A DNA stretch of 64,000 nucleotides, taken from assembly GCA_019638595.1 (NCBI GenBank), contig JAHBTJ010000008.1, forward strand, positions 215,730 through 279,729, in the 5' to 3' direction. Below, piece after piece: positions 2,703 through 64,000 of this stretch. The position numbers were made by a program, and so were the translations under genes. A model generated the notes under the pieces. It was given only the letters and a program-made list of their open reading frames with translations. It made no database searches and was not told the DNA's origin. Position 1 is the first letter of the stretch. Every line of letters begins with the position of its first letter. The stretch is from Chitinophagaceae bacterium (GTDB lineage Bacteria; Bacteroidota; Bacteroidia; Chitinophagales; Chitinophagaceae).

Positions 2703-2841
2703 AGCTATGAGCGGTCAGCAGTCAGCTATGGGCTATCAGCGATCAGCCGTCAGCAATTTATAGTTTTTTGTTTATAGTTAAGAAACCACAAATAGTGTGC
2801 GTGCCCAAATCCGAAACTTCAAACCATAAACTATAAACAAA
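2703..2841. repeat. 7-nt periodic intergenic array A
   Basis: Twelve consecutive heptamers in perfect register run from 2703 to 2786. They begin as AGCNNTC/G variants (for example AGCTATG, AGCGGTC) and change to TATAGTT-type units. The run continues less regularly and re-forms at 2814-2841 as AAACNNN units. There is no reading frame. The 25 bp at 2771-2795 recur exactly at 43206-43230. Confidence 0.75.
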
Positions 2842-13650: not shown

Positions 13651-14658
13651 TTAAAAATATTTTATTCCTATAGACTGTCTTACAAGCTGCATGGTTGCTT
13701 CGGCGCTCCGACGTGCTTTAAAAGCTCCTTTTTCAAGCACTTCCGCCAGGTATTTTTCGTCGTTGCGAATAGCTTCAGCTTTTTCACGGATCGGCGCCAT
13801 GAACCGGATCATCTCTTCGGCTAATTGCTTTTTCATATCACCATAACGGATATTACAATTGGAATAATCAGCTTCAAACTTATTATATACATCTTCAGCG
13901 CCCGTAAGCCTTACCAGTTGAAAAAGGTTTTCAATATAATCCGGCTTGGGAGTACCGGGCGCTTTAGGGCCTTCATCTGTTTTAGCCTTCATGATCTTTT
14001 TGCGGATCAGCTCATCACTGTCGGAAAGATATAAAGTGGCATTCTGATTTTCACTTTTGCTCATTTTACCGGTACCATCCAGGCTGGGTACTTTTACCAG
14101 CTCCTGTCCAAAATTAAAAGCCACCGGCTCGGGGAATACTTCAGCATACCTGTGGTTGAACCGGGCCGCAAAATTCCTGGCCATTTCAAGGTGCTGCTCC
14201 TGGTCTTTACCTACCGGCACATACAGCGCGCGATGCAATAAAATATCCGCCGTCATCAACACCGGGTAAGTAAGCAACGCCGCGTTGATATTTTGCGGTT
14301 GCAGCCTTGCCTTGTCTTTAAAAGTAGTTGTTTTTTCAAGCTCGCCTTTATAGGCCAGTGTATTAAGATAGAAATAAAGCTCTGAGGTTTGATAAATGCT
14401 GCTCTGGCAGTATAAAGCCACTTTTTCCGGATCAAGGCCGCATGCAAGATATTCAGATATTACATGCAGCACATTCTTTCTCAACTCGTTTGTATCGGGA
14501 TGTGTAGTGAGCGAATGCAGGTCGGCGATCATAAAATAGCACTCATATTCATCCTGCATGCGCAAATAGTTTTTGAGCGCTCCAAAATAATTGCCCAGGT
14601 GTAAAATACCCGTGGGGCGAATACCGCTCATTACAATCTGTTTACCACTTTTTTCCAT
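13651..14658 (-). CDS. trpS: Tryptophanyl-tRNA synthetase
   Basis: A class Ic aminoacyl-tRNA synthetase that charges tRNA-Trp. The HIGH-type signature is PTGILHLGNYFGALKNY, the KMSKS loop is GTGKMSKSENQN (residue about 200), and the active-site segments LTYPVLMTADILLH and PVGKDQEQHLEMAR are conserved. The start MEKSGKQIV at 14658 gives 335 residues, the usual length. The frame stays open to an earlier ATG at 14706, which would add 16 residues not typical of the family. It is transcribed away from the dehydrogenase at 14950; the shared upstream region holds a short 7-nt repeat array. Confidence 0.95.
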   Translation of the reverse strand: MEKSGKQIVMSGIRPTGILHLGNYFGALKNYLRMQDEYECYFMIADLHSLTTHPDTNELRKNVLHVISEYLACGLDPEKVALYCQSSIYQTSELYFYLNTLAYKGELEKTTTFKDKARLQPQNINAALLTYPVLMTADILLHRALYVPVGKDQEQHLEMARNFAARFNHRYAEVFPEPVAFNFGQELVKVPSLDGTGKMSKSENQNATLYLSDSDELIRKKIMKAKTDEGPKAPGTPKPDYIENLFQLVRLTGAEDVYNKFEADYSNCNIRYGDMKKQLAEEMIRFMAPIREKAEAIRNDEKYLAEVLEKGAFKARRSAEATMQLVRQSIGIKYF

Positions 14659-14817
14659 AGGGCGCGAAGATACATTAATTACCGTAGTGCCGGAATGAGG
14701 TTTCATCCATTTTATATCATTATACTCCTTATGTATGGTATGGCATTCGTTTTGCGATCAATTTGTAATCATTGGCATACCTCACTTACTCCCTGCGCCG
14801 CAGGCGCGGCCCTGTAC

Positions 14818-14852
14818 ACCTTGTACCCTGCAACCTGAACCTTGTAACCTGA
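14818..14852. repeat. 7-nt periodic intergenic array B (short)
   Basis: Five heptamers in register (ACCTTGT and AACCTGA variants) between divergent trpS and the dehydrogenase gene. Read on the other strand the units resemble the GGTTnCA units of the array at 46.4 kb, so the two belong to one family in opposite orientation. Confidence 0.6.
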
Positions 14853-14949: not shown

Positions 14950-16437
14950 ATGGCATCGTTTAAAGATCTTACCAAAGAAGAAGTGAACAGTATTATAGAA
15001 AGATCATGGAAGGCTTTTGAAGCATACCGGAAATACCCGTTACAAAAAAGAGCGGCATTCATGAGGGCTATAGCCGCTGAATTAGAAAAAGGAGCCAAAG
15101 AAGTACTGCCCGTTGCCATGAAGGAAACGCATTTGCCGGAGCCCAGGTTACAAACAGAATTTACCCGCACATTGTTCCAGCTAAACAGCTATGCAGAGGC
15201 ATGTGAACAAGGCTCCTGGCTGGAAGCGAGGATAGATACGGCTATGCCTGACCGTAATCCATCCAAACCAGACATCAGGAAAACAATGATACCATTAGGC
15301 CCCGTGGCTGTGTTCGGTGCAAGTAATTTTCCCTTTGCTTATTCCACAGCAGGCGGCGATACGGCCTGCGCGCTGGCTGCAGGTTGCCCGGTAGTTGTAA
15401 AAGCGCATCCTGCCCACGCAGAAACATCTGAATGGGTTGCTAATACAGTGTGGAAAGCTGCTAAACAACTGGATATACCGGAGGGGATTTTCGGGCATAT
15501 ACATGGAGCCGGCTTTGAAACAGGCAAAGCGCTGGTAACACATCCACACATAAAAGCGGTGGGTTTTACAGGTTCGTATGCTGGAGGAAAAGCGCTGTTT
15601 GACTGGGCCAACCAACGTAAAGACCCCATACCCGTATTTGCCGAAATGGGCAGCATCAATCCCGTATACCTGCTTCCGCAAAAGCTACGGGAAGCGGCAG
15701 CCGAAACCGCGAAAATGTATGCAGCTTCCATAACATTGAGCATGGGCCAGTTCTGTACCAACCCCGGATTGATCATTGGTATTGAAAGCGCTGAGCTTGA
15801 TCGGTTTATTTCTGTATTGGGTGATGAAATAAAACAAGTGGCGCCGGCTCACATGCTTCATACGGGCATTGCCAAAGCTTTTGCCGCCAACAGGGCAAAG
15901 GCTTTAATGCAGGAACAGGTAACTACGGTAGCCGTTTCCGTTACCCCGGCAAAAGAGGAACAGGGCATTCCTACTATCGCTTCTGCTTCTGCTAAAACCT
16001 TCCTGAACAACCCGGTGCTGCACCAGGAAGTATTCGGGCCATATTCATTGGTAATACAATGTAAAAATATGGAAGAGATGCTACAGGTGGCAATGGACAT
16101 GGAAGGACAAATTACCTCTACCTTAATGGCTACCGTAAACGATATGCTCCGTTACGAAGCGCTGGTTGATATTGTTAAGCAAAGCTGCGGAAGAATGATC
16201 GTGAACGGTGTGCCTACGGGAGTGGAAGTTTGCCTGGGCATGCAGCATGGCGGACCTTTCCCTGCAACTACCGATGCCAGGTTTACTTCGGTAGGCGCCG
16301 ATGGCATTAAACGATTCGCCCGGCCCATCAGCCTTCAAAACTGGCCGGATGAGCTTTTGCCCGATGAGCTGAAAAATAATAATCCGCTGATGATATGGAG
16401 AACAGTCAACAATAAGCTTACACAGGAACCTTTGTAG
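14950..16437 (+). CDS. Aldehyde dehydrogenase, alpha-ketoglutarate semialdehyde type
   Basis: A cytosolic 495-residue NAD(P)+-dependent dehydrogenase. The pattern VFGASNFPFAYSTAGGDTACALAAGCPVV, the FTGSYAGGKALFD cofactor loop, FAEMGSINPV (general base Glu) and SMGQFCTNPGL (catalytic Cys near residue 269) place it in the KGSADH / 2,5-dioxovalerate dehydrogenase group. This group completes oxidative pentose or hexuronate degradation, or hydroxyproline breakdown, to 2-oxoglutarate. The C-terminal MQHGGPFPATTDARFTSVG is typical. The start at 14950 begins the first helix and is preceded by an A/T-rich region. No pathway partners lie beside it; the downstream SMP-30-like gene has its own promoter-like element. 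Confidence 0.88.
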   Translation: MASFKDLTKEEVNSIIERSWKAFEAYRKYPLQKRAAFMRAIAAELEKGAKEVLPVAMKETHLPEPRLQTEFTRTLFQLNSYAEACEQGSWLEARIDTAMPDRNPSKPDIRKTMIPLGPVAVFGASNFPFAYSTAGGDTACALAAGCPVVVKAHPAHAETSEWVANTVWKAAKQLDIPEGIFGHIHGAGFETGKALVTHPHIKAVGFTGSYAGGKALFDWANQRKDPIPVFAEMGSINPVYLLPQKLREAAAETAKMYAASITLSMGQFCTNPGLIIGIESAELDRFISVLGDEIKQVAPAHMLHTGIAKAFAANRAKALMQEQVTTVAVSVTPAKEEQGIPTIASASAKTFLNNPVLHQEVFGPYSLVIQCKNMEEMLQVAMDMEGQITSTLMATVNDMLRYEALVDIVKQSCGRMIVNGVPTGVEVCLGMQHGGPFPATTDARFTSVGADGIKRFARPISLQNWPDELLPDELKNNNPLMIWRTVNNKLTQEPL

Positions 16438-42107: not shown

Positions 42108-42791
42108 ATGAAACACATTATCGGTACCTTTAAAACGATGGCACTCGGCGGTGCTTTCGCAATGCTCCCCTTTTGCATAATGGCAAATGAAGAAGGCATT
42201 GACAAAAAGAAAAAAAATCAGCCGGAAGCAGTTGAAAACGCTCCCGAGGTAGAGGTTGTATCTTTTACCGGCAGGCTGCAGAACAACAAAGTGGATCTGC
42301 AGTGCAAAGTAAAAAGCAATTGCTGCTATAGCATTACGGTGGAACGCAGCAGGAACGGAAAACGTTTTTCCGGGATTGGAAATTTTTCCGACAATAAACA
42401 GCTTGCGGAGTATACATTTTTGGACGACAGCCCTTTAAAAAATACGAACTACTATCGTTTAAGAGTAACCGATAACAAAGGGAATGTATCGTACTCCAGG
42501 CTAATGGTTGTGCAGCTATACAATACAGAGGCTTTATCTATGGTAAGCGTTACGCCCAATACCGCTTTGCAGGACATACACATTAATGTGCAATTGAAAA
42601 ACAGGGCATTTGTGGTAATGAAAATTACTGATGAGAAAGGACGGGAAGTAATACAAAAAAGACTGGCAGGAAAGGAAGGATTGAATACATACGAACTGGA
42701 AGGCACACATACAATGATTCCCGGTAATTACTCGCTGGAAGTGCGTGTTAACAATACGGATCAGTTGTTACTGCCTTTGATCAAAGAGTGA
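42108..42791 (+). CDS. Secreted protein with fibronectin-like and T9SS-sorting-like domains
   Basis: A 227-residue secreted protein. The signal peptide is residues 1-26 (...AMLPFCIMA), followed by a Lys-rich linker. A beta-sandwich at about 50-140 (VDLQCKVKSNCCYSITVERSRNGKRF ... YTFLDDSPLKNTNYYRLRVTDNKGNVSYSRL) parallels the preceding gene product. The last 85 residues (VSVTPNTALQDIHINVQL ... VVMKITDEKGREVIQKRLAGKEGLNTYELEG ... PGNYSLEVRV) look like a type A T9SS sorting domain, though the canonical PNP motif is altered to PNT. It is therefore mostly linker plus sorting signal, without a cargo domain, which is odd. It may be a surface or adhesion component. Confidence 0.7.
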   Translation: MKHIIGTFKTMALGGAFAMLPFCIMANEEGIDKKKKNQPEAVENAPEVEVVSFTGRLQNNKVDLQCKVKSNCCYSITVERSRNGKRFSGIGNFSDNKQLAEYTFLDDSPLKNTNYYRLRVTDNKGNVSYSRLMVVQLYNTEALSMVSVTPNTALQDIHINVQLKNRAFVVMKITDEKGREVIQKRLAGKEGLNTYELEGTHTMIPGNYSLEVRVNNTDQLLLPLIKE

Positions 42792-42837
42792 TGAAAGATT
42801 GTAAAAGGCAAACCCCGTTTTCTCAGGTATCCTACAG

Positions 42838-42870
42838 GCGCAGAATTTTTCTGCGCTATTTTTTTATTTT
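42838..42870 (+). terminator. Rho-independent terminator
   Basis: GCGCAGAA (42838-42845) pairs with TTCTGCGC (42849-42856) across a 3-nt loop, then a T-rich run to 42870. Its end overlaps the stop codon of the convergent winged-helix gene. Confidence 0.85.
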
Positions 42871-43155
42871 CCCTTTCCCCACATAATCCTGTAAATTTTT
42901 TACATACTCTTCAAAAGCATTGACGCCTTTTGGAGTGAGCTTACATAGTGTTTGAGGATAATTGTCTTTAAATTTCTTCTCTACATCAATATAGCCGGCT
43001 TCCTTTAATTTTTGTATCTGCACACTAAGGTTGCCGGCTGTAGCATTGGTTTTTTCGCGTAAAAAAGTAAATTCAGCTTCTTTCACGCCTATCAGCAACG
43101 ATACCACAGCCAGCCTGAGTTGTGAGTGCAATATGGGGTCAAGGTCTTTAAACAT
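42856..43155 (-). CDS. Winged-helix transcriptional regulator (MarR/ArsR-like, single domain)
   Basis: A 99-residue cytosolic DNA-binding protein. One winged-helix domain fills the protein: HSQLRLAVVSLLIGVKEAEFTFLREKTNATAGNLSVQIQKLKEAGYIDVEKKF. This matches the short winged-helix regulators often annotated as transcriptional regulators beside membrane protein genes in Bacteroidota. The start is the ATG at 43155. Upstream on the same strand lie a TPR-protein gene and a TonB receptor gene, separated from it by a 7-nt repeat array. It may control these genes, but the array makes a shared operon uncertain. Confidence 0.85.
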   Translation of the reverse strand: MFKDLDPILHSQLRLAVVSLLIGVKEAEFTFLREKTNATAGNLSVQIQKLKEAGYIDVEKKFKDNYPQTLCKLTPKGVNAFEEYVKNLQDYVGKGKIKK

Positions 43156-43201
43156 TTATTTCGTTTCGTTGATCGCTAAAAGATGGCAGATGCGGATGTT
43201 T

Positions 43202-43327
43202 GGAGTTTATAGTTAAGAAACCACAAATAGCTTTCAGCCGTCAGCAATGAGCCATCAGCTTTCAGCTATTAGCCGTTAGGTAGCAGCTACCCAATCTCAA
43301 ATTCCCAACATCTCCAAACCATAAACC
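43202..43327. repeat. 7-nt periodic intergenic array D (longest in register)
   Basis: Eighteen consecutive heptamers without a phase slip, from 43202 up to the stop codon of the TPR gene at 43328. Units drift from ATAGTTA type through GCNNTCA type (GCTTTCA twice, GCCGTCA) to AANNTCN and ATAAACC types. The 25 bp at 43206-43230 are identical to 2771-2795. Confidence 0.78.
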
Positions 43328-43957
43328 TTACTTACACTGTGCCAACATTTCTTCTGTTTGCTGCTTACCCCAATTGGGATACAAGGGTGCAGGCTTTTCG
43401 GCATTGAACAAAGAAAGCGCCTTTTCCAACATGGGTTTGGCTTTTGCTTTACCGCCACCAAACTGTTCCGGAGTATTGAATATACCCGCAGCCTGCAGGT
43501 AATGCAACCTCGGGTTGGCGGGATCAAGCTGTAAGCCTTTTTTCATGGCAGCTTCGCCTTCGGCCCCATACGTGCTCCAGCGCGACTGAGGGTCCACCAG
43601 CATTTGCTGGGTAGCCGCCATATTGCGAATGGCATACAATTCGGCATTATCCTCTATGGCAGCAGCTTTATCACATAATTCTTTTACCCTGGCCGCGTTC
43701 GCGTCCTTATCTAATAAAGCATCCGTCCATCCCGGGGTTATTAAGCAAAGTGCCGCGTAATAGTAGGGAAGCCATTGCGTTTTTTCGGCATCGCCTATTC
43801 TTTGAAAAGCATCAGACAGGCTTTTCCATCCGGATGTTGATTTTACCGTATCCATTGCAGCCAGTCTTGCTTCCATCGCCTTTACATATTTGTCGCTTTG
43901 CGCGGCAACATTCAGCATGGCTATACTCAAAACAGTAACTATTAATGTCTTTTTCAT
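43328..43957 (-). CDS. Secreted TPR-like protein
   Basis: A 209-residue periplasmic protein with signal peptide MKKTLIVTVLSIAMLNVAAQ. The rest is helical with tetratricopeptide-like repeats (NAARVKELCDKAAAIEDNAELYAIRNMAATQQMLVDP, then GEAAMKKGLQLDPANPRLHYLQAAGIF, and AKPMLEKALSLF). No catalytic motif is seen. It lies 45 bases after the TonB receptor stop on the same strand, so the two are probably co-transcribed and the TPR protein may help assemble or work with the receptor. Confidence 0.75.
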   Translation of the reverse strand: MKKTLIVTVLSIAMLNVAAQSDKYVKAMEARLAAMDTVKSTSGWKSLSDAFQRIGDAEKTQWLPYYYAALCLITPGWTDALLDKDANAARVKELCDKAAAIEDNAELYAIRNMAATQQMLVDPQSRWSTYGAEGEAAMKKGLQLDPANPRLHYLQAAGIFNTPEQFGGGKAKAKPMLEKALSLFNAEKPAPLYPNWGKQQTEEMLAQCK

Positions 43958-44002
43958 ATTTGTTTGATTTCTGAATTATTGTATTATCGCGAATAAAAAA
44001 TT

Positions 44003-46252
44003 TTACAGGTTATTGTTAATAGCATCTTCGGTCCTGTCAATACCAAGACTCATAAAAACTCCCAGGAATACGAATATGCGCGATGGCGGCACTATGGCTG
44101 ACTTGCGATATCCGTTGTAAGAATAATTATATCCATATACCTGGTTAATACCAAAAATATTGTTTACCGACAGTACCAGTACCGTAAATCGCTTGCTGTC
44201 TTTTTTAAACAAATCAGGCAGGTAATTCAGGCTGAAGCTCACATTGTGATAATCCCTGGTTTCTCCTTTATCCGAAAATTCATATTCCGTACCGTCAAAA
44301 ATAATATTATAATAAGGGCGACCGCTGGCATAGGTATACGACATGTTAAACCCTGTTTTCCATTCTGTCACAAACTTCTTCATTACCAGCGAAGCGGTAT
44401 GCTTTGATGCAAAATTGGGCTGAATGGCAAAGGGAAAATTCGTAAAATCTCTTTTGGTATCGAGGTACGAATACGAAACCCAATAGTCGAGATTTTTAAA
44501 AGTTTTTTTATCGCGCCAGAACAACTCAAATCCTTGGGCATCGCCAAAGCCATTATTATTTACAGCTACCTGCTGGTTGGTGACGCTGCTGAAACCGGTT
44601 TTTATAAGATCATTGTATTTTTTGTAAAATGCTTCCAACCGGAAGGTGATCTTACCGGTTACTTTTTGATACTGTGCTATATAATGCGTGGCTTTTGAAA
44701 ATGTAAGCACATGGGGCGTAGGTAAGTATTTATTTTCAGGATTCTGGTAAAAAATACCATACGCCAGGGACGCCTGGCTGCTTTTACCTGTTTTGTACGC
44801 AAGTGAGATCCTGGGCGCAATATTGTTTTTGTTCAGCAACGAAGAATGCTCAAACCTGCCTCCTATTTTTGCAGCCAGGTCGTTGGTAAGATAAATATCT
44901 GTTTCCGCAAACAAGGCGTTCATATTTTCCACAATGCTATTGCTGAACTGATCGCCCGTGTACAATGTATACCGGGTTTTATCGTGACTGTAATTATACT
45001 CCGTTCCGAACCTGATTACTGAAATGCCCCGAAGCCTTTTATCAAACAGCAATTTGGCATTAAAATATTTACCGGGCATCACAACATTAAAATTTTTATA
45101 CTCAAGCCCCTGTAATGTTTGCTCTTTATTTTGATCATCCAGCAGATTGCCTTCAATATTATCCCTGTTGGTAGTATAAGACAGCCCCGCATTCAGCTTC
45201 CAGCCATTGCCCAGCAGTTCCCGGTACGACAGGTTATGATACATATTGAAGTTCTTGATGGAAAACGCGTCCTTATAGCCAACTGTATCCAGGCTGGGGT
45301 TCCTGATGCCTACTTTATTTCCACTGAAATAACCATAATATTTTATAATGCCCGTGGAAGATGTTTTGATACGGAAATTAGCATCGGCAGTATGAAAATC
45401 AGGTATTCTTGTATATTCGGGGCGTTGCCTGATTGCTTTGAACGCCAGCCAAAGGTTGGCGTAGCTGTAACTGAAGCCCCACGATGACCTTTTATTTTTT
45501 GCAAGATGCTGGTGCCCTGCGTTCATGCTTAATACCGATATACCAAAATCACTTGAGCTTTGTTCGGGCAGATCTATAGACTCCAGTATCAAAGCAGAAG
45601 AAAGCGCCTGGCCATACAATGCCGAATAACCGCCGGTGCTAAAAATCGTTCCCTTAAATAAAAAAGGAGAAAATCTGCCGCGTTGCGCTATATTAGGTAC
45701 ACTGCTATAGAAAAAATTATTGACGAGTGTGCCATCAATAAAGGTTTTGGTTTCAGCAGCGGTACCGCCTCTTACAAATAAACCTTCGCTCTCGCCCACC
45801 TGCTGCGCACCCGGTAATGTTTTTAAAGCGCCTGTTACATCGGCATTGGCGCCTGCCGTTGTAGCAACATCAATAGAGCTTAATACCGTCACCCGCTTCC
45901 GGTCTCCCGCTTCAAAGCTGCCTGCCGTGATCAGCACGGCTTTTAATTCGCTGATCTCTTCTTTCATGTCTATATCCATCGCAACAGGTGTGTCAGCAAT
46001 TTCTATATTATTTTCTACCGGTTTGTATCCCAGGGCTGTTATTACCAATACAAACTTTCCTTTTTCACCGGTTGTAAAATGATAGCCGCCGGTTGAATCG
46101 GAGGTGGCTCCGTCATAGGTATCCTTTAACGTTATGCTCGCCCCCGCAACAGGCTTGCCTTTTCTATCCCTTACATGCCCTGAAATTTCCGTTTGGGCGT
46201 TAACAGCCACTACCCACATCATACTTACGGCTAATACTAATACTTTTACCAT
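44003..46252 (-). CDS. TonB-dependent receptor with carboxypeptidase-regulatory domain
   Basis: A 749-residue outer-membrane receptor. Signal peptide residues 1-19 (...VVAVNAQ) are followed by a carboxypeptidase-regulatory-like domain (ISGHVRDRKGKPVAGASITLKDTYDGATSD..., to about 100). The plug has GALKTLPGAQQVGESEGLFVRGGTAAETKTFIDGTLV, and a short barrel with aromatic-ending strands closes with VFLGVFMSLGI. There is no SusD partner. The fold and length fit receptors for small ligands or metal chelates. Its neighbours downstream are a TPR protein and a winged-helix regulator; upstream lies a repeat array and an IS110 remnant. Confidence 0.88.
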   Translation of the reverse strand: MVKVLVLAVSMMWVVAVNAQTEISGHVRDRKGKPVAGASITLKDTYDGATSDSTGGYHFTTGEKGKFVLVITALGYKPVENNIEIADTPVAMDIDMKEEISELKAVLITAGSFEAGDRKRVTVLSSIDVATTAGANADVTGALKTLPGAQQVGESEGLFVRGGTAAETKTFIDGTLVNNFFYSSVPNIAQRGRFSPFLFKGTIFSTGGYSALYGQALSSALILESIDLPEQSSSDFGISVLSMNAGHQHLAKNKRSSWGFSYSYANLWLAFKAIRQRPEYTRIPDFHTADANFRIKTSSTGIIKYYGYFSGNKVGIRNPSLDTVGYKDAFSIKNFNMYHNLSYRELLGNGWKLNAGLSYTTNRDNIEGNLLDDQNKEQTLQGLEYKNFNVVMPGKYFNAKLLFDKRLRGISVIRFGTEYNYSHDKTRYTLYTGDQFSNSIVENMNALFAETDIYLTNDLAAKIGGRFEHSSLLNKNNIAPRISLAYKTGKSSQASLAYGIFYQNPENKYLPTPHVLTFSKATHYIAQYQKVTGKITFRLEAFYKKYNDLIKTGFSSVTNQQVAVNNNGFGDAQGFELFWRDKKTFKNLDYWVSYSYLDTKRDFTNFPFAIQPNFASKHTASLVMKKFVTEWKTGFNMSYTYASGRPYYNIIFDGTEYEFSDKGETRDYHNVSFSLNYLPDLFKKDSKRFTVLVLSVNNIFGINQVYGYNYSYNGYRKSAIVPPSRIFVFLGVFMSLGIDRTEDAINNNL

Positions 46253-46318
46253 CCTTACAAATTACTTCTCAAATGTAAAGTAGTTTATGTTATAAACCAA
46301 ATATTATTTAAGATTCAA

Positions 46319-46458
46319 AGTTTACGGTTTCGGGGTTGAAGTTTATAGTTTCAGGAGCCGGGGGGTACTTACAACAATTAATGGTTTCGGGCCTATAGTG
46401 TATGGTTGCAGGTTACAAGTTGCAGGTTTCGGGTTTATAGTTTTGAGGTTGTGGTTTG
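46319..46458. repeat. 7-nt periodic intergenic array E
   Basis: About twenty heptamers, GGTTTCG / AGTTTAT / AGGTTAC type, with a one-base phase change near 46382. The array begins 66 bases upstream of the TonB receptor start and ends where recognisable IS110 transposase sequence begins. Its reverse complement resembles array B. Confidence 0.75.
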
Positions 46459-46682
46459 CTTAGCTCAAAGCTGGCCCCGGGGTAACGCTTCCTTAAATGA
46501 GTGATCACCCCTTCAGCCCTGGCTCCCATACGGTGATTACCTAAGGTCATACCTTCATAAACAGCTGCTACCTGCCAGTCTTTTTTGTGAACATCAATTC
46601 CTACATAAATTACGCTTCCTGCATAACGTTGTTGCTTACCTTTGTTGTCGGTTTCGGGTGCGGCAGAAGTTTGTTGTTTCAT
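46459..46682 (-). pseudogene. IS110-family transposase, N-terminal fragment
   Basis: About 73 codons of a DEDD transposase remain: after a Gln-rich start the RuvC-like motif VIYVGIDVHKKDWQVAA (first catalytic Asp in GID) is intact. Then EGMTLGNHRMGARAEGVITHLRKRYPGASFE follows before the sequence runs into the 7-nt array. Full transposases have 300 or more residues including a second, Ser-containing domain, all missing here, so this is a dead remnant. The open frame continues about 16 codons through the repeat to 46413, which is not homologous. IS110 elements use a bridge RNA encoded next to the transposase; any remnant would lie at 46683-46794. Confidence 0.85.
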
Positions 46683-46794
46683 TGTAAAATGATTTTAGTT
46701 TCTACAAATTTCTTCTTTGCAGCGTAAAGAGCAATCTTTTCGACTGATGCTGTTCCGAAACCTTTTTCATATAGACTGATAGCCAATGCCCCCC
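46683..46794 (-). other. Short open fragment upstream of the IS110 remnant
   Basis: On the minus strand this stretch reads open for 36 codons from just after the AraC stop codon, with coding-like segments ISLYEKGFGTASVEKIALY and AAKKKFVETK, and stops in TGA overlapping the IS110 start (ATGA). It could be the 3' scrap of a displaced gene (the first part resembles a TetR helix-turn-helix start) or the IS110 left end that encodes the bridge RNA. I cannot decide between these. Confidence 0.35.
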
Positions 46795-47685
46795 TCACGC
46801 CTCATACACATGCGCGTTAAATGACATCAGGTATTCACTGGGGGTCATTTCCTTTACCGCCCTGAAAACCCTGTTGAAGTTGGTGATGCTGTTAAACCCG
46901 CAATTATATGCGATGGTCGATATCCCTTCATTAGAATTGCTGGTTAGCTTACTGCAGGCTTCATTGATCCGCACTTCATTCAAAAAACTGATAAAAGTTT
47001 TTCCTGTACGTTTTCTGAAATACCTGCAAAATGACTGGGTTGTCATATAGGCGATCGCCGCAACATCTTCCAGCGAAATATCGTTATTAAAATTATCCAT
47101 GATATACTTGTATATCTTGCTGATCCTGCTGCCATCCTCTTCGCTGTAATGTTTTGTTTCATTGCCGGAAGATAGGGCGCCGGTAGCCGGAAGAGCGGAT
47201 AAGAATTTCATCAGGTCAATAAAGTATATGATTCTTTCAATGCTCCCGTCTTTCAGTTCACTGATATATTGCATCCTGGTGCAAATATCATGGGCATATG
47301 GCTGTGGAATGCAAAAGCCTGATTGATTCTGCTGTATAAAATTTTTAAGCTGTCTCATTTCAGGCAAGCCGAAAAAAGAGGAAAGCATGCCATTTGGATT
47401 AAAAAAAATGGTGAGCGCCTGGATGCTTTTTGAGCTGCCCGGCATAAAATAAGTAGAATCATTTTTAAATACATGCGGCTGGTTGGCTCCCAGGAAAAAA
47501 ATATCATTGGATTGGAATGCATGCATATTATTACCGGCAACCAGGGTACCTTCTCCCTTAATGACCCAGGTAAGCTGCACTTCTTTATGACGGTGAAAAT
47601 GAGGAAAAAAATAAGGAAGCGATTCGGGAAGAACAATAATTGATTTGTTCTCGGGCACAGGAATGGTAAACTGAAGGACTCTCAT
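46795..47685 (-). CDS. AraC-family transcriptional regulator with cupin sensor domain
   Basis: A 296-residue regulator. The N-terminal cupin (about residues 10-120: LPYFFPHFHRHKEVQLTWVIKGEGTLVAGNNMH, NDIFFLGANQPHVF) binds a ligand, usually a sugar. The C-terminal pair of helix-turn-helix motifs is ISLEDVAAIAYMTTQSFCRYFRKRTGKTFISFLNEVRI and ISTIAYNCGFNSITNFNRVFRAVKEMTPSEYL. It lies 257 bases downstream of the hybrid sensor gene on the same strand, at the left border of the fructan-type locus. A perfect 14-bp palindrome stands 182 bases before its start. It may act as a second, sugar-responsive regulator of the locus. Confidence 0.9.
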   Translation of the reverse strand: MRVLQFTIPVPENKSIIVLPESLPYFFPHFHRHKEVQLTWVIKGEGTLVAGNNMHAFQSNDIFFLGANQPHVFKNDSTYFMPGSSKSIQALTIFFNPNGMLSSFFGLPEMRQLKNFIQQNQSGFCIPQPYAHDICTRMQYISELKDGSIERIIYFIDLMKFLSALPATGALSSGNETKHYSEEDGSRISKIYKYIMDNFNNDISLEDVAAIAYMTTQSFCRYFRKRTGKTFISFLNEVRINEACSKLTSNSNEGISTIAYNCGFNSITNFNRVFRAVKEMTPSEYLMSFNAHVYEA

Positions 47686-58496: not shown

Positions 58497-60167
58497 ATGA
58501 ATAAAAAGAAAATCTGCATTGTAATCATTGCCGCTACGCTTTGCAGCGACTTGTGGGCACAGCTCAAAGAAGACCAGCCACTGGTCAATGAAGAAAAAGA
58601 TATTCCGGCTAATGTGATCAGCGCTACAGCGGCATTCCGCGAAAGACTGTTAAGTGATCCTTACCGCCCGGGGTATCATTTTAGCTTTCCTGAAGGTGAT
58701 GGACGCCCGGGAGATCCCAATGGGGCATTTTATCATAACGGGCTTTATCACCTGATGTTTTTGTATAAGCGTACAGACGGTAAGTTTGCCTGGGGACACG
58801 CTTCCAGCAAGGACCTCCTCCACTGGAGATACCACCCCGATGCGATAGGGCCGGGCGATGGCGATGAAGGCTGTTTCAGCGGTGGCGCGTTTGTAGATGA
58901 TGACGGCACTGCTGTATTGTCTTACTGGATGCTGTGGGGTGCAAAGGGGATCGGCCTTGCCAGCAGCAAAGACCCGGATTTTTCACATTGGCAAAAATCC
59001 GGCGCTAATCCCGTGATACAGTCAACAGAGTGGGGCATTACTGCCCTGAAAAATAAAGAGGGAAAACCTTATTACGTTGGTTCGGCCGACCCTTCCAATA
59101 TCTGGAAAAAGAATGGGAAATACTATATGGCTACCGGCAACCTGCTGGTACTGCGTAAGTTTGGCTCGCGTGGCGCCGGGCTGCCGGCTAATTTCACTGA
59201 AGGAAGCTTACCGGAAGATTCACTTAACTACCAGGGAGACCGGCTGTATTTATTTGAATCGGATAACCTGAAGGACTGGACGTACAAACATGAATTCTAT
59301 CAGTCCAACCGGAAGTGGACACAAAAGACGGAGGATAATATGTGTCCCAGTTTCTTACCGCTGCCATCATCACCCTACGGAGGCAAAAGCGATAAGCATC
59401 TCCTGCTGTTCATCAGTCATAACCTGGGTTGCCAGTATTATATCGGCAGCTACCGGGATGATCAATTTTTTCCTGATAAGCACGGGAGGATGACCTGGAC
59501 TGACAACGCTTATTTTGCACCTGAAGCGTTGGTGGATAACAAAGGGCGGCAAATTATGTGGGCCTGGATTTTTGACGACCGGCCCGATAGCCTGAAAAAT
59601 TATTACGGCTGGAATGGCATATATGGATTACCCCGGTCGCTTTGGGTGAACAGGGATGGCGAATTGGGGATGCGCCCGGTGGAAGAATTGAAAAACCTTC
59701 GCATGAATGAAAGGGAAAGGAAAAATATCAGTCTTACTACAGGCAACCCGTTGACATTGCATCGGCAAAGCAGCCGGTACACAGAAATGGATATCACCCT
59801 ACAGCCCGGCACTGCGGCACAGGCAGGCATTGTAGTAGCCCGTTCGGAAGATGGAAGAGAAGAAACGGTCATTTACTACGATGCCCAAGAAAAGAAGCTG
59901 AAGCTGGATGCGTCAAAGTCAAGCTTGAGTTACGGGAGAAGAAATGTAGAGAGCGCCCCGTTCGAATTGAAAAAGGGAGAGCCGCTTAACCTGCGGGTAT
60001 TTATTGATAATGGAATTATAGAAGTTTTTGCAAACGACAGGCAGGCCATCGCAAGAACAGTATATCCCACATTAGGAGGCTCAGCCGTACAGCTTTTTTC
60101 CAAAGGTGGTAACGCGGTAGTGGTGTCTGTTAAAACATGGGATATAGCTCCTTCCAATCCATATTAA
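58497..60167 (+). CDS. Secreted GH32-family glycosidase 1 with atypical motifs
   Basis: A 556-residue secreted enzyme: signal peptide 1-21 (...CSDLWAQ), a five-bladed propeller to about residue 400 and a C-terminal beta-sandwich (LNLRVFIDNGIIEVFANDRQAIARTVYPT). The nucleophile motif is GRPGDPNGAFYHNGLYHLMF (Asp near 71); FAWGHASSKDLLHW and CFSGGAF are conserved. Two hallmarks differ: the RDP transition-state motif is SADPSN, and the acid/base EC motif reads EDNMCPSF, with Glu four residues before Cys instead of next to it. HNLGCQYYIG and FAPEALVDNKGRQIMWAWIFDDR are normal for GH32. It most likely hydrolyses fructosyl linkages, with specificity uncertain. The next GH32 gene starts 23 bases after its stop. 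Confidence 0.88.
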   Translation: MNKKKICIVIIAATLCSDLWAQLKEDQPLVNEEKDIPANVISATAAFRERLLSDPYRPGYHFSFPEGDGRPGDPNGAFYHNGLYHLMFLYKRTDGKFAWGHASSKDLLHWRYHPDAIGPGDGDEGCFSGGAFVDDDGTAVLSYWMLWGAKGIGLASSKDPDFSHWQKSGANPVIQSTEWGITALKNKEGKPYYVGSADPSNIWKKNGKYYMATGNLLVLRKFGSRGAGLPANFTEGSLPEDSLNYQGDRLYLFESDNLKDWTYKHEFYQSNRKWTQKTEDNMCPSFLPLPSSPYGGKSDKHLLLFISHNLGCQYYIGSYRDDQFFPDKHGRMTWTDNAYFAPEALVDNKGRQIMWAWIFDDRPDSLKNYYGWNGIYGLPRSLWVNRDGELGMRPVEELKNLRMNERERKNISLTTGNPLTLHRQSSRYTEMDITLQPGTAAQAGIVVARSEDGREETVIYYDAQEKKLKLDASKSSLSYGRRNVESAPFELKKGEPLNLRVFIDNGIIEVFANDRQAIARTVYPTLGGSAVQLFSKGGNAVVVSVKTWDIAPSNPY

Positions 60168-60190
60168 ATCAACATGGTCAATCATCTAAA

Positions 60191-61771
60191 ATGAACAACA
60201 TTATGCGCAAAAGTATGTTTTGGGTGCTGGGCATCCTCTTTTCCCAGGTTTGTTACGCTCAGTACGACAAGAAAGACGATGCCGATCTGATGAATGCCAG
60301 CCGCAAGCTCAGGCAGTTGATCCAGCGTGATCCTCACCGGCCGATCTTTCATTTTGCAAATCCTGAAGGCATTGCCATGCCTTTCGATCCCAACGGTGGC
60401 ATTTACTGGAACGGGAAATACCACCTGGGCTTTATTTACCAGAGCCTGCAAAATGGAAAGCGGGAACATTTTTGGGGTCATGCTGTCACCCGCGACCTCT
60501 TCCACTGGACGCTTTACCCCGATATGCTGGACGTAAAGCCGGGTGATGTTGAGCTGGGCATATTCAGCGGGGGCACCTTCCTTTCAAGGGAAGGAATTCC
60601 CCATATTATTTATCATGGGGCGGGAGCTGATGTTAACCTTGTTGCCTACTCGAAGGACAGGGATCTGAGAAAGTGGATAAAGTTTGAAGGCAACCCCGTA
60701 CTGGCTACGCCGGCTAAAGGCAGCGCCCTTGAAGGAGAGTACCGGGCCTGGGATCCCGAATGCTGGTTCGACAAAAAGACAGATCATTATTACCAGATCG
60801 CCGGAGGAGAGATAGCCGGGTTGTTTAAATCAAAAGACATGTATAAATGGAACTATATCGGTGATTTTATAGACAGGAAAAACAACCGGCTTTTTAATTA
60901 TGAAGACATTTCCTGCCCTGATTTTTTCAGGATCGGTGACAAAGATATTTTGTTGTTTATCAGCCATCAGTTAGGTACGCAATACTATATTGGAAAATTT
61001 GAGAATGATAAATACACCATAGAAAAGCACGGTCGCATGAATTGGCCCGGCGGTACCTTTTTTGCCCCGGAGCAGTTGGTGGATGATAAGGGCAGGAATA
61101 TCATATGGGGATGGGTGCTGGAAAGAAAGCCTGCTCATCTTCCCAATTATGGCTGGTCGGGCATCATGAGCCTGCCAAGAGTATTGACACTTTCTAAAAG
61201 CGGCGAAATGCAGGTTAACCCGCCGGAAGAAATCAGGAATATAAGATTACCTGGTGGACTGAAGGAAAAGCCGGGAACCATTGCCGCCAATACGGAAAGG
61301 GTAGTTTCCATGGAAGGTACATCGCTGGAAATAAAAGCAGACTTTAAAGGTTCAGACAAATCGGCTTATGGTGTTAAAGTGTTTTGTTCTCCGGATGGCA
61401 GGGAAGAAACGGTTATCCAATACGACCCGGTAGCGAAAGAGATCATTATTGATTTTATCAAGTCATCCTTTCATAACCCTGTAGAGATGGTAACCCATGT
61501 TATTTCAAAGCCTGAAAAAATAGAAGGTTTTGGGAGCACCACATCCCGGCAAAGAGCGCCGTTTGAGTTGAAAAAGGGAGAGCAGTTGCAACTGGATATT
61601 TTTATTGACCGGTCCATTATCGAGGTTTTTGCAAATGGCAGGCAATGTGTTACCCAGGTAGTATACCCCGAATTAAAAACCAGCACGCAGATAAAATTAT
61701 TCGCAACTGACGAACCTGTAATTGCCGGGAACTTGGAAGTATATGAAATGTCGGAAACGAATAATTATTGA
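60191..61771 (+). CDS. Secreted GH32-family glycosidase 2 with atypical motifs
   Basis: A 526-residue paralogue of the preceding enzyme. The start at 60191 precedes a signal peptide (RKSMFWVLGILFSQVCYAQ); an open frame extends back over the upstream stop without similarity. Motifs are AMPFDPNGGIYWNGKYHLGF (nucleophile near residue 66), FWGHAVTRDLFHW and GIFSGGTF. RDP is replaced by AWDPECWF, and the EC region reads YEDISCPDFF (Glu near 238). The C-terminal sandwich has LQLDIFIDRSIIEVFANGRQ. The EDxSCPD pattern also occurs, as I recall, in a branch of GH32-like proteins of Bacteroidota and Planctomycetes. Last gene of the PUL operon; a hairpin near 61778-61795 and a 7-nt array follow. Confidence 0.87.
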   Translation: MNNIMRKSMFWVLGILFSQVCYAQYDKKDDADLMNASRKLRQLIQRDPHRPIFHFANPEGIAMPFDPNGGIYWNGKYHLGFIYQSLQNGKREHFWGHAVTRDLFHWTLYPDMLDVKPGDVELGIFSGGTFLSREGIPHIIYHGAGADVNLVAYSKDRDLRKWIKFEGNPVLATPAKGSALEGEYRAWDPECWFDKKTDHYYQIAGGEIAGLFKSKDMYKWNYIGDFIDRKNNRLFNYEDISCPDFFRIGDKDILLFISHQLGTQYYIGKFENDKYTIEKHGRMNWPGGTFFAPEQLVDDKGRNIIWGWVLERKPAHLPNYGWSGIMSLPRVLTLSKSGEMQVNPPEEIRNIRLPGGLKEKPGTIAANTERVVSMEGTSLEIKADFKGSDKSAYGVKVFCSPDGREETVIQYDPVAKEIIIDFIKSSFHNPVEMVTHVISKPEKIEGFGSTTSRQRAPFELKKGEQLQLDIFIDRSIIEVFANGRQCVTQVVYPELKTSTQIKLFATDEPVIAGNLEVYEMSETNNY

Positions 61772-61867
61772 GGAACCGGGCGGCAGCAGCCACCCGCAGT
61801 GTTGCGCAAAAACATCATTACAAAATTTTATGCCGCTGAAAAAGCAATTGGGTAGCTAAAAGATGTT

Positions 61868-61923
61868 CCCAACTATAATAAATAAACAATAAACAACAAA
61901 CTATAAATCACAAACAAACAACC
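61868..61923. repeat. 7-nt periodic intergenic array F
   Basis: Eight heptamers in register (ATAAACA, ACAAACT types) between the convergent GH32 and gldD genes, ending seven bases before the gldD stop codon at 61930. Preceding bases from 61850 can be read in the same 7-nt phase. The units match the AAACTAT class of array A. Confidence 0.68.
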
Positions 61924-61929
61924 CGCTCC

Positions 61930-62571
61930 CTATTTCCATTTCAACGTATTTACCAGGTGCAGCATGTCTTTTTCGAGGAAGTTATAAACAATATTCAAAG
62001 AATCTTCGTTAGGGGTGCTGTTAAAATAAAGCGCGCCGCGTAAAAAATGCTTTATCGAATCGGTAGCGTAAAACTGCTTGCCTGTGGCCGCGTTGCCGCC
62101 TATTGAAAAAAATACTCCTTCCAGGCCGGTGGGTGTTCTGAAAGCAGAATCCTGGATGGAAGACGCACGCGAAGTATGTTTATACGTAATCTTGTAAGCT
62201 TCTTCGCGCAGGTTTTCAAACGTATTGACAACCGATGAGTCTTTGTATCCTTTCTCTGTTTTTACTTTATATACCGAGCGCCCGCCAATCGTTTTATAGC
62301 TGAGATACATACGCGCATTGAACGCAGGGAAGTCAACGTTGATCCAGTAAGGACTATCGGGATTGTCATCAAATAAACTGCTGTCTTTAACGATGTGGCT
62401 GTATACAGGGTATTCGAAGTTGTAAGGATAGTTGTCTTTTTCAAATGTTTGATACCGGTGCTCGGGAAAATCAATTGAAAAATATCCCCTGGGGCGGGGG
62501 GTATAATCACTATTGCACGATAACAAAAGTAGTATCCAGGCAACCAATAAAATTACGCCGGTTTGTTTCAT
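61930..62571 (-). CDS. gldD: Gliding motility lipoprotein GldD
   Basis: A 213-residue lipoprotein required for gliding motility in Bacteroidota. The N-terminus MKQTGVILLVAWILLLLSCNSDYTPRPRGYFSIDFPEHRYQ has a clear lipobox (LLSC, Cys near 19) and the GldD hallmark PRPRGYxRIDFP. The remaining GldD core is PYWINVDFPAFNARMYLSYK and the C-terminal ATDSIKHFLRGALYFNSTPNEDSLNIVYNFLEKD. It follows gldE by 22 bases, the conserved gldE-gldD order. It works with the Gld/Spr machinery that also secretes T9SS cargo, of which this window holds at least one clear example. Confidence 0.95.
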   Translation of the reverse strand: MKQTGVILLVAWILLLLSCNSDYTPRPRGYFSIDFPEHRYQTFEKDNYPYNFEYPVYSHIVKDSSLFDDNPDSPYWINVDFPAFNARMYLSYKTIGGRSVYKVKTEKGYKDSSVVNTFENLREEAYKITYKHTSRASSIQDSAFRTPTGLEGVFFSIGGNAATGKQFYATDSIKHFLRGALYFNSTPNEDSLNIVYNFLEKDMLHLVNTLKWK

Positions 62572-62593
62572 AGTATTACGATTTTATAACCGG

Positions 62594-63937
62594 TTATTGA
62601 TCAGTCAACACCCTTATGGTTACTTTTACCTTTTTAATTCTGTTTTTTTCTATTTCCATTACTGTAAATTCAAAATCTCCGATGGGTATCACCTGGTTTT
62701 CTTTGGGAATCTCTCCCGCCAGTTCAAGCACCAGCCCTGCAATCGATTCGCTGTCTCCTCTTACCTGGTCAAAAGTGTCTTCCGGTAAGCCCATTGCCTT
62801 GCAGGCGTCGGTTATCATGATGCGCCCTTCGAATATATAATTGTGGTCATCAATTTTTTTATTAACGCTTTCTTCATCATCAAACTCATCCCGTATATCG
62901 CCGATGATCTCCTCCATGATATCTTCCATTGTTACAATCCCCTCTGTTCCTCCAAACTCATCTACTACTACTGCAAAGTGAACACCCTTGCGCTGCAGAT
63001 CTTTCAGTAAATCTTTAATCAGGTTTTGTTCCGGCACAAAATAAGGTGGGCGTATCAGTTGCCGCCAGTCGTAATCGTCTTTTTCCCCAACATAGGATAA
63101 TACATCTTTAGTGTGAATAATTCCTACTACGTCATCAAGGCTGCCCTTGTATACCGGCAGACGGGAATAATGCAGCTCTTCTATTTTTTTTATAAGATCG
63201 GGAAAGCTCATGGAATAATGAATGGCACTTACGTCGAGCCGTGTACGCATGATCTGTTTTACGGTAACCTGTCCAAACCTGGCTATGCCGCGCAGTATAT
63301 TCTTTTCTTCTTCCGTAGTCTGTTCATTGGTATTCATTTCAATGGCCTGGTCTATGTCTTCGGGGTTGTATACATGATGTTCTTTAATACCCCCGAAACT
63401 TCTTTCTATGCCATCGGAGAATTTTGTAAAGGACCTGCTCATGCTGCCAAAAAATGCATCCAGTATTTCAACCAGCAGTGAAGCGCTGTAAGCTACCCGC
63501 AGATTATTTTGGGTTGCCCATACTCTGGGCAGGATTTCCCCAAAAAACACCAGCAGGAATACGATAACAAAGAGCTTTATAAAGAAATTAAGTCCGGTGT
63601 TTGCTTCCGTAAGAAATTCATCCATCAGCACATTGGCGACAATAATGATGCATATGTTCACGAATATGCCGGATATCTGCAGTGTGGTAAGCAGCTTTTT
63701 GGGTTGCTCCAGCAGGGAGGTGATCCTTCTTGCAGCAGGATGCTGTTTGGTTTTAAGCATATTAATATCGCGGTAGCCAAGAGAGAAAAATGCAACCTGC
63801 GCGCCGGAAAGAAAAAAGGCGATAATTAACAGTACAATGAGCAGTATAAGCAGTATGGTAACACTTTGCGAATTGACAGCCAGTAAAAAAGGCTTTAAAG
63901 CAGTAAAGCTTAGATGTGCCGCAGATGGATAATCCAA
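62594..63937 (-). CDS. gldE: Gliding motility-associated protein GldE (CNNM/CorC-like)
   Basis: A 447-residue membrane protein of the CNNM/HlyC-CorC family. The N-terminal DUF21/CNNM region has three or four membrane helices (ILLILLIVLLIIAFFLSGAQVAFFSL first, then two near residues 85-150). Two CBS domains follow (VTVKQIMRTRLDVSAIHY ... SRLPVYKGSLDDVVGIIHTKDVL; LLKDLQRKGVHFAVVVDEFGGTEGIVTMEDIMEEIIGDI). The CorC_HlyC domain closes it (RIMITDACKAMGLPEDTFDQVRGDSESIAGLVLELAGEIP). In Flavobacterium, gldE sits before gldD and can substitute in part for it. Its first-gene position here indicates a gldE-gldD transcript. Confidence 0.93.
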   Translation of the reverse strand: MDYPSAAHLSFTALKPFLLAVNSQSVTILLILLIVLLIIAFFLSGAQVAFFSLGYRDINMLKTKQHPAARRITSLLEQPKKLLTTLQISGIFVNICIIIVANVLMDEFLTEANTGLNFFIKLFVIVFLLVFFGEILPRVWATQNNLRVAYSASLLVEILDAFFGSMSRSFTKFSDGIERSFGGIKEHHVYNPEDIDQAIEMNTNEQTTEEEKNILRGIARFGQVTVKQIMRTRLDVSAIHYSMSFPDLIKKIEELHYSRLPVYKGSLDDVVGIIHTKDVLSYVGEKDDYDWRQLIRPPYFVPEQNLIKDLLKDLQRKGVHFAVVVDEFGGTEGIVTMEDIMEEIIGDIRDEFDDEESVNKKIDDHNYIFEGRIMITDACKAMGLPEDTFDQVRGDSESIAGLVLELAGEIPKENQVIPIGDFEFTVMEIEKNRIKKVKVTIRVLTDQ

Positions 63938-63974
63938 AATATTGGTTTTAGATGAATAAGTATTGAATCATAAA

Positions 63975-63994
63975 GGCAGGTCAACCGGCCTGCC
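63975..63994 (-). terminator. Possible terminator of a gene to the right of the window
   Basis: GGCAGG (63975-63980) pairs with CCTGCC (63989-63994). On the minus strand it is followed by TTTATG. It lies 38 bases before the gldE start, so it may end an upstream minus-strand gene that begins outside the window. Confidence 0.45.
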
Positions 63995-64000
63995 TGGTAC

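Follow-up and report, generated by a model that had tools for sequence, protein, structure and literature searches.

Five stretches of intergenic DNA in the window analysed here (64,000 nucleotides; bases 215730-279729 of the 280-kb contig C51) keep a seven-base period while the sequence of the repeated unit drifts, and the question they raise is how such arrays come into being, spread and persist. The window belongs to a 7.06-Mb draft genome, G000. For one window protein the nearest family is the Chitinophagaceae, with 88% identity to the best named relative, a MAG (L031; genome G147), and 77% identity to Terrimonas sp. NS-102 (L033; genome G149). Coding DNA of G000 and G147 is about 80-90% identical. 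Genes were called as greedy, uncurated open frames with a minimum length of 80 or 130 aa, and these calls underlie the segment counts for C51 and G147, the count of elements outside frames, the distances to gene 3' and 5' ends, and the identity and register of stop codons reported below. The five arrays are listed in Table 1.

Table 1. Heptad arrays of the window and parts of them, with their words, their seats and their lag-7 matches.
Feature	Position	Strand	Words or identity	Seat	Lag-7 matches (shuffle mean)
Array A	2703-2841	.	Eight AGCNNTC-type units (2703-2758), then GTTTATA/AAACTAT	Divergent gap, HAD-type hydrolase (1857-2663, -) / cytochrome c protein (3278-5980, +)	72/132 (34.2)
26-bp core in array A	2770-2795	+	100% identical to 43205-43230 in array C
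Array B	14818-14852	.	Short CCTGNAA-type run	Divergent gap, tRNA synthetase class I W/Y (13651-14706, -) / aldehyde dehydrogenase (14950-16437, +)	18/28 (7.1)
Array C	43202-43327	.	In order: GTTTATA core, AGCNNTC-type units, TCAAATC and AAACCAT words	Tandem gap, abuts 3' end of open frame 43328-43957 (-)	63/119 (31.1)
AGCNNTC-type units in array C	43229-43277	+	Seven units
Array D	46319-46458	.	GTTTATA and CAGGTTN, about 20 heptads in a single phase	Upstream of carboxypeptidase-regulatory/plug-domain protein (44003-46252, -); other side AraC-type regulator (46795-47685, -), its 3' end 337 bp away	68/133 (38.4)
Array E	61868-61923	.	AAACAAT/AAACTAT words	Convergent gap, 6 bases from GldD 3' end (61930-62571, -); other side GH32 protein (60137-61771, +)	30/49 (22.1), p 0.003

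A seven-base period in intergenic DNA

All five arrays exceeded dinucleotide shuffles in lag-7 matches, and for arrays A-D none of 2000 shuffles reached the observed number. The preliminary description of a period that is kept while the words drift is therefore borne out. It had also held that array D runs without a phase slip, and the phase of this array was indeed coherent over its whole length (period-7 power 8.74 vs 0.82, reached by no shuffle). Array B was coherent too. The same whole-array test gave p 0.0105 for array C and p 0.087 for array A, which are weaker because the word class changes along both. That word classes switch while the phase is kept was likewise supported.

When the window was scanned at lags 4-15, 21 and 28, the threshold was passed only at 7, 14, 21 and 28; the scan recovered arrays A, C, D and E, array B being too short for it. 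On the whole contig we found 19 lag-7 segments, where lags 4-6 and 8-13 gave 0-1; in 400 kb of G147 there were 51 against 0-6. The excess of lag-7 matches over dinucleotide shuffles that had been predicted for intergenic DNA was present in the window (z 2.7), in contig C51 (z 8.8) and in the 400 kb of G147 (z 18.6), with echoes at 14 and 21. Intergenic DNA has an excess at lag 3 too (z 4.5, 11.0 and 10.6, respectively), which stands above that at lag 7 in the window and contig and probably reflects missed coding bases. Across 65 loci around one gene (65 records, 1.02 Mb) we counted 44 lag-7 segments and 2-13 per lag at 4-6 and 8-13, two segments at every lag being runs of N. Outside the family, 40 stretches from the phylum, some of them short (0.66 Mb), held 8 lag-7 segments against 0-2 per lag at 3-6 and 8-13. 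The trait is thus widespread across the phylum and very uneven.

Words, free positions and turnover

The same words recur across several loci of one genome, and other genera favour other words. AGCNNTCAGCNNTCAGC, which spans two and a half AGCNNTC units, had 155 matches in the whole genome, against 0 for a reversed control; at least one match was present in 40 of the 147 genomes from the family and in 36 of the 118 from the phylum (the window's own counted in both), and genome G055 held 501 matches. The reversed control was common in four other genomes, as CGACTGC, CGACTTA, CGACTGT and CGACTGA in mostly near-perfect arrays, and GGCNNAA words were found in one genome (L145). Judged by eye, the frequent order in the window's genome is AGCNNTC, GTTTATA, AAACTAT, CCTGNAA, TCAAATC, with a continuous 7-base phase. 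The core common to arrays A and C is GTTTATAGTTAAGAAACCACAAATAG, diverged versions of which occur in other composites.

The AGCNNTC class was the one covered by unit-by-unit tests. Its 743 units (151 runs, four genomes) have two adjacent free positions, the second of which is C in 6 units. For 60 units of G000 and G147 that lie between two perfect units, and so were not selected by their own letters, conservation along the unit was 0.82, 0.93, 0.97, 0.35 (free), 0.53 (free), 0.90 and 0.75. Neighbouring units carried an identical free pair in 110 of 592 cases, where 105.5 were expected from a global shuffle and 124.1 from a within-run shuffle; the last base of the unit showed neighbour likeness at lag 1 (z 8.3 and 5.2). 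If slippage were followed by neutral decay, neighbouring units should be alike and all positions should decay equally; since both predictions fail, this account is refuted for AGCNNTC. For this class, the earlier claim that ordinary slippage does not suffice holds. Two further ideas about the free positions were rejected. An apparent avoidance of the same second free base by neighbours (20 vs 39.9 in 100 G000 hits) came from overlapping hits, so that the pairs were not independent, and it shrank to z -2.0 in a larger set. A coding origin failed as well (second free base at lag 3, z 1.8; lag 2 not negative).

Perfect AGCTATC and AGGTATC runs occur in G055, as would be expected from fresh growth. 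Two near-perfect AGCTATC arrays of that genome (L183, L184; about 13 units) look recently grown, and L183 sits, by eye, directly at a reading-frame end. A universal word grammar was considered and is not claimed. Cross-genome word alignment scored 1.58 vs 1.38 after column permutation (sd 0.04, 105 arrays) and 1.90 vs 1.66 in a second set (sd 0.05; 52 arrays, 35 other genomes), with profiles that differ between the sets; strand asymmetry makes up part of the signal (mean absolute GC skew 0.49 vs 0.23 in flanks), and of four words from the literature three did no better than 15-24% of random words and one no better than 2%.

Orthologous gaps of G000 and G147 contained shared arrays, arrays differing in length by whole units, or arrays of other words. 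The array at C16:14.4 kb, in a region of about 6% divergence, differs by 14 nt (two units), and its free pairs are kept over some 110 aligned bases despite the two units gained or lost; that at C51:151.6 kb differs by 7 nt. Aligned arrays also show gaps of 2, 13 and 18 nt, which are not multiples of seven. Arrays B and C keep their seat in G147 with differing words, the counterpart of the array B gap holding a 167-bp array, and at C51:73.1 kb the word order reads as inverted between the two genomes. Inspection of orthologous gaps by eye revealed no clean empty site, and no fixed ends were noticed. Array E is identical in G147, which we rejected as a sign of constraint because the surrounding 2.4 kb is fully identical too. 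This tract, window positions 61612-64000 at the contig end (about 2.4 kb), matches G147:C1 at 100%, the DNA just before it at about 90%, and reflects either recent interspecies exchange or a contig-end assembly artefact. Synteny with G147 stops in the array D gap (46253-46794), the next block lying elsewhere and inverted, so array gaps may be rearrangement points.

As for spread between loci, two distant loci share an identical 38-bp stretch; of the four hits that it gave, three are loci that overlap at a single place. No full-length copy of array C was present among the 45 matches listed for it in its own genome (40 of 122 candidates scored). Three-unit strings shared between loci were counted in sampled parts of the genomes, and the observed and expected numbers were 53 and 59 in G000, 10 and 8.5 in G149, 21 and 12.6 in G147 (p 0.03), and 101 and 84 in G055 (p 0.08). 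Dispersal is thus argued from the shared words and the composite order, with little direct evidence of block-copying. Another dispersed repeat, which matches both strands over part of its length, lies at L103:6185-6406 (about 146.2-146.4 kb of C51) and has a few dozen matches in G147; as far as seen, it is unrelated to the heptads.

Seats at gene ends and in a helicase loop

Because 53 of 57 elements lie outside predicted frames, the arrays as a class are not decayed reading frames. The 53 non-coding elements are flanked by 57 gene 3' ends, 36 of which are no more than 15 bp from the array, where 20.6 (sd 2.0) would be expected if each element were randomly placed within its own gap. This bias contradicts the preliminary view that position carries no information. 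Gene 5' ends showed no excess (13 of 49 within 15 bp, 14.7 expected; start codons not curated). In four array-rich genomes the stop beside the array was TAG in 48 of 92 cases, against about 25 from genome shares; the excess was absent in 25 stop-adjacent arrays of other genomes (5 TAG). Among 114 stop-adjacent arrays, the stop fell in the best of the seven registers in 35, with 16 expected. The open frame whose 3' end array C abuts has no Pfam match.

One gene, which from its motifs we take to be of the Lhr helicase type, carries an in-frame heptad array, and in both G000 and G147 this array lies within one loop. The same loop contains CACCATT-type words in G157, a short resembling stretch in G150 and none in G151. 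Eight helicase loci entered the comparison (among them L099:15743-18307, L131:14708-17314, L261, L262 and L266), with L263, L264 and L265 left out for lack of a motif match. Together with the arrays behind stop codons, the helicase loop shows a route for such DNA into coding sequence.

Origin of the arrays and their known relatives

REP/BIME or MITE-type elements are dispersed, intergenic and composite and often lie near gene 3' ends. The present arrays are likewise dispersed, composite and placed at 3' ends, but they have an internal 7-base period, and no fixed ends or consistent hairpin were seen. Closer relatives are described in two papers. Intergenic heptamer arrays, including heterogeneous units with five conserved positions and seats at stop codons, are already known from them (PMC4679880, PMC4692102). 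The TAACTGA intergenic direct repeats are tandem, dispersed and mostly intergenic heptamers, and include five Bacteroidetes (MacGregor 2015, PMC4679880); in some Bacteroidetes and cyanobacteria they are mixed with other heptamers, some gaps holding several, so the earlier statement that nothing like the arrays had been described in Bacteroidota is not supported. Between two Cyanothece strains their length changes mostly in 7-nt steps, and some overlap stop codons or sit within frames (PMC4679880). Their complement, TCAGTTA, is one transition from the TCAGCTA of the present arrays, just as AGCTATC is one transition from the complement of TAACTGA, and the in-frame peptides are alike (LSVISYQ for the TAACTGA repeats, SYQLSAL in the G147 helicase). 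That system, however, has one word, mostly just upstream of start codons (PMC4679880), whereas the present arrays have several degenerate classes and a 3'-end bias. TAACTGA itself did not appear in the lists of the 14 leading tandem words of the groups.

The GGGAATC and GGGGA(C/T)T repeats of Xanthomonas and Nostoc have heterogeneous units with five conserved positions (GGGANTN). They are dispersed and intergenic, rare between divergent genes and in many cases near or over stop codons, with inverted pairs, length changes between species and no function found in the account given there (Rehm 2015, PMC4692102). The seat at 3' ends and stop codons is common to these Xanthomonas repeats and the present arrays, but the former are G-rich and quadruplex-forming, with free positions 5 and 7 (PMC4692102), where AGCNNTC has two adjacent free positions and the main words AGCNNTC, AAACTAT, TCAAATC and CCTGNAA contain no GGG. 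Heptamers have been reported as the most abundant long SSR unit, in repeats longer than chance runs, for which a polymerase interaction or footprint was suggested as the cause (Mrazek 2007, as cited in PMC4679880 and PMC4692102); most of the present arrays are degenerate. Within the open-licence literature, searches for heptamer, tandem or repetitive repeats in Chitinophaga found no paper, and MacGregor 2015 was the only relevant one for heptamer repeats in Bacteroidetes. Within the reach of these searches, neither the degenerate AGCNNTC unit, with its adjacent pair of free positions, nor the composite order seen in Chitinophagaceae has been described.

The best reading is that the arrays are a known kind of intergenic heptanucleotide repeat in an old mosaic form. 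As to their origin, we give an even chance to a model in which lineage-specific heptamer words expand seven bases at a time and are carried into tolerated DNA by copying across short homologies. Each lineage would own a vocabulary of heptamer words, present at many loci per genome. Arrays would grow and shrink by whole 7-base units through slipped copying, and a mutated unit within an array could become the template for further growth and thus a new word, so that the class would change without loss of phase. We infer that DNA synthesis or repair near a gene end may use short homology to copy part of an existing array and so found a new locus. Tolerance of extra DNA would let arrays survive right after stop codons and within some protein loops, and they would mostly be passengers without a regulatory role.

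This growth-and-copying model accounts for the phase through class changes, the shared vocabulary, the seat and the turnover. Counting for it are the vocabulary common to many loci, the fixed class order, the whole-unit length differences, the shared 38-bp and 26-bp stretches, the 3'-end seat, the stop register, the TAG excess and the word variation in the helicase loop. Against it count the free pair at chance between neighbours, the very unequal conservation of positions, the three-unit strings that are not clearly shared, the lack of a listed full copy of array C and the gaps that are not heptads. It leaves unexplained why AGCNNTC has a free, memoryless pair beside about five held positions; for this, a reader protein that imposes selection or an iterating polymerase would be the better fit.

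The first of these, which we consider unlikely, holds that a DNA- or RNA-binding protein reads about five of the seven bases in steps of seven, that selection keeps the conserved positions, and that the free pair is a spacer. Three 7-base units make two helical turns. Such a reader would suit the unequal conservation in the 60 units not chosen by their own letters, the C at the second free base in merely 6 of 743 units and the presence of one word class in several genera, but the word classes or their order often differ between orthologous gaps, words differ among genera and seats vary.

The second, which seems to us quite unlikely, is that a polymerase (a reverse transcriptase, an end-joining enzyme or another) adds 7-base steps with about five bases templated and two open, so that arrays would be born with random pairs. 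We know of no enzyme that does this. Free pairs do act as independent draws within arrays, and mostly between arrays, and the C16:14.4 kb array kept its pairs while two units were gained or lost. A Ku gene was present in 11 of 13 array-rich genomes against 47 of 117 other complete family genomes (p 0.003, array richness being measured by two word patterns only); after size-matching p was 0.11, and array-rich G089 had no Ku match. Genome size explains much of this association, which we keep as a lead. The reverse transcriptase link raised in the preliminary description did not hold up in the same genomes: RVT_1 was found in 7 of 13 against 40 of 117 (p 0.22), with p 0.06 under laxer thresholds and p 0.42 after size-matching. 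The near-perfect arrays of other genera also speak against iterative synthesis. In a more specific form, which we hold to be decidedly improbable, an iterating polymerase would make the arrays in bursts, working on breaks or stalled ends close to gene 3' ends, and the fixed pentamer of a lineage would reflect the template.

Plain neutral microsatellites, formed by 7-base slippage and then unconstrained point mutation, are as a general account also quite improbable. Perfect arrays and two whole-unit length differences (7 and 14 nt) are what they would give, and in many bacteria no long repeat unit is commoner than the heptamer (PMC4679880, citing Mrazek 2007), but such microsatellites would not produce one vocabulary at many loci. 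Already refuted for AGCNNTC by the failure of both of its predictions, this reading may apply to the other classes.

RNA hairpins or terminators behind genes would match the 3'-end seat, the frequent presence of a word and its complementary word in one element, and strong single folds (Y:22483, z -8.6; Y:86788, z -6.2; array C, z -4.0 on the minus strand, which is the sense strand for the gene preceding it, and 0.1 on the plus strand). As a class, however, the 57 elements folded weakly (mean z -0.99 and -1.27 on the two strands, against -0.62 and -0.55 for 57 control gaps), the window had no Rfam match and a terminator scan of 42700-47000 named none in array C or D, so we rejected a general role of this kind as very improbable, although array C itself folds well on one strand. 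Cassettes that place a stop every 7 bases and close all three frames behind genes are scarcely credible and largely ruled out as a general role, since TNA is frequent in the words (0.76 vs 0.58 permuted in G000 and G147, z 3.9; G055 z 3.6; G149 z 4.1) but only at z 1.7 in independent genomes, and mRNA-strand words with a stop show no excess (0.64 vs 0.60 permuted, sd 0.04), the excess sitting on the other strand (0.60 vs 0.49, sd 0.04).

Why many bacteria prefer seven-base repeats is posed as an open question in the parts of both papers drawn on here (PMC4679880, PMC4692102). About five held and two memoryless positions do not come from slippage alone, and the choice is therefore narrowed down to three: selection, inter-locus copying and a special mode of synthesis. 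If the iterating polymerase were true, the arrays would be a genomic fossil of a repeat-adding activity so far unknown in bacteria, and it would explain why heptamers are a favoured long repeat in unrelated phyla. With the many arrays and the related species that these genomes provide, strain collections could be used to trace how arrays are born.
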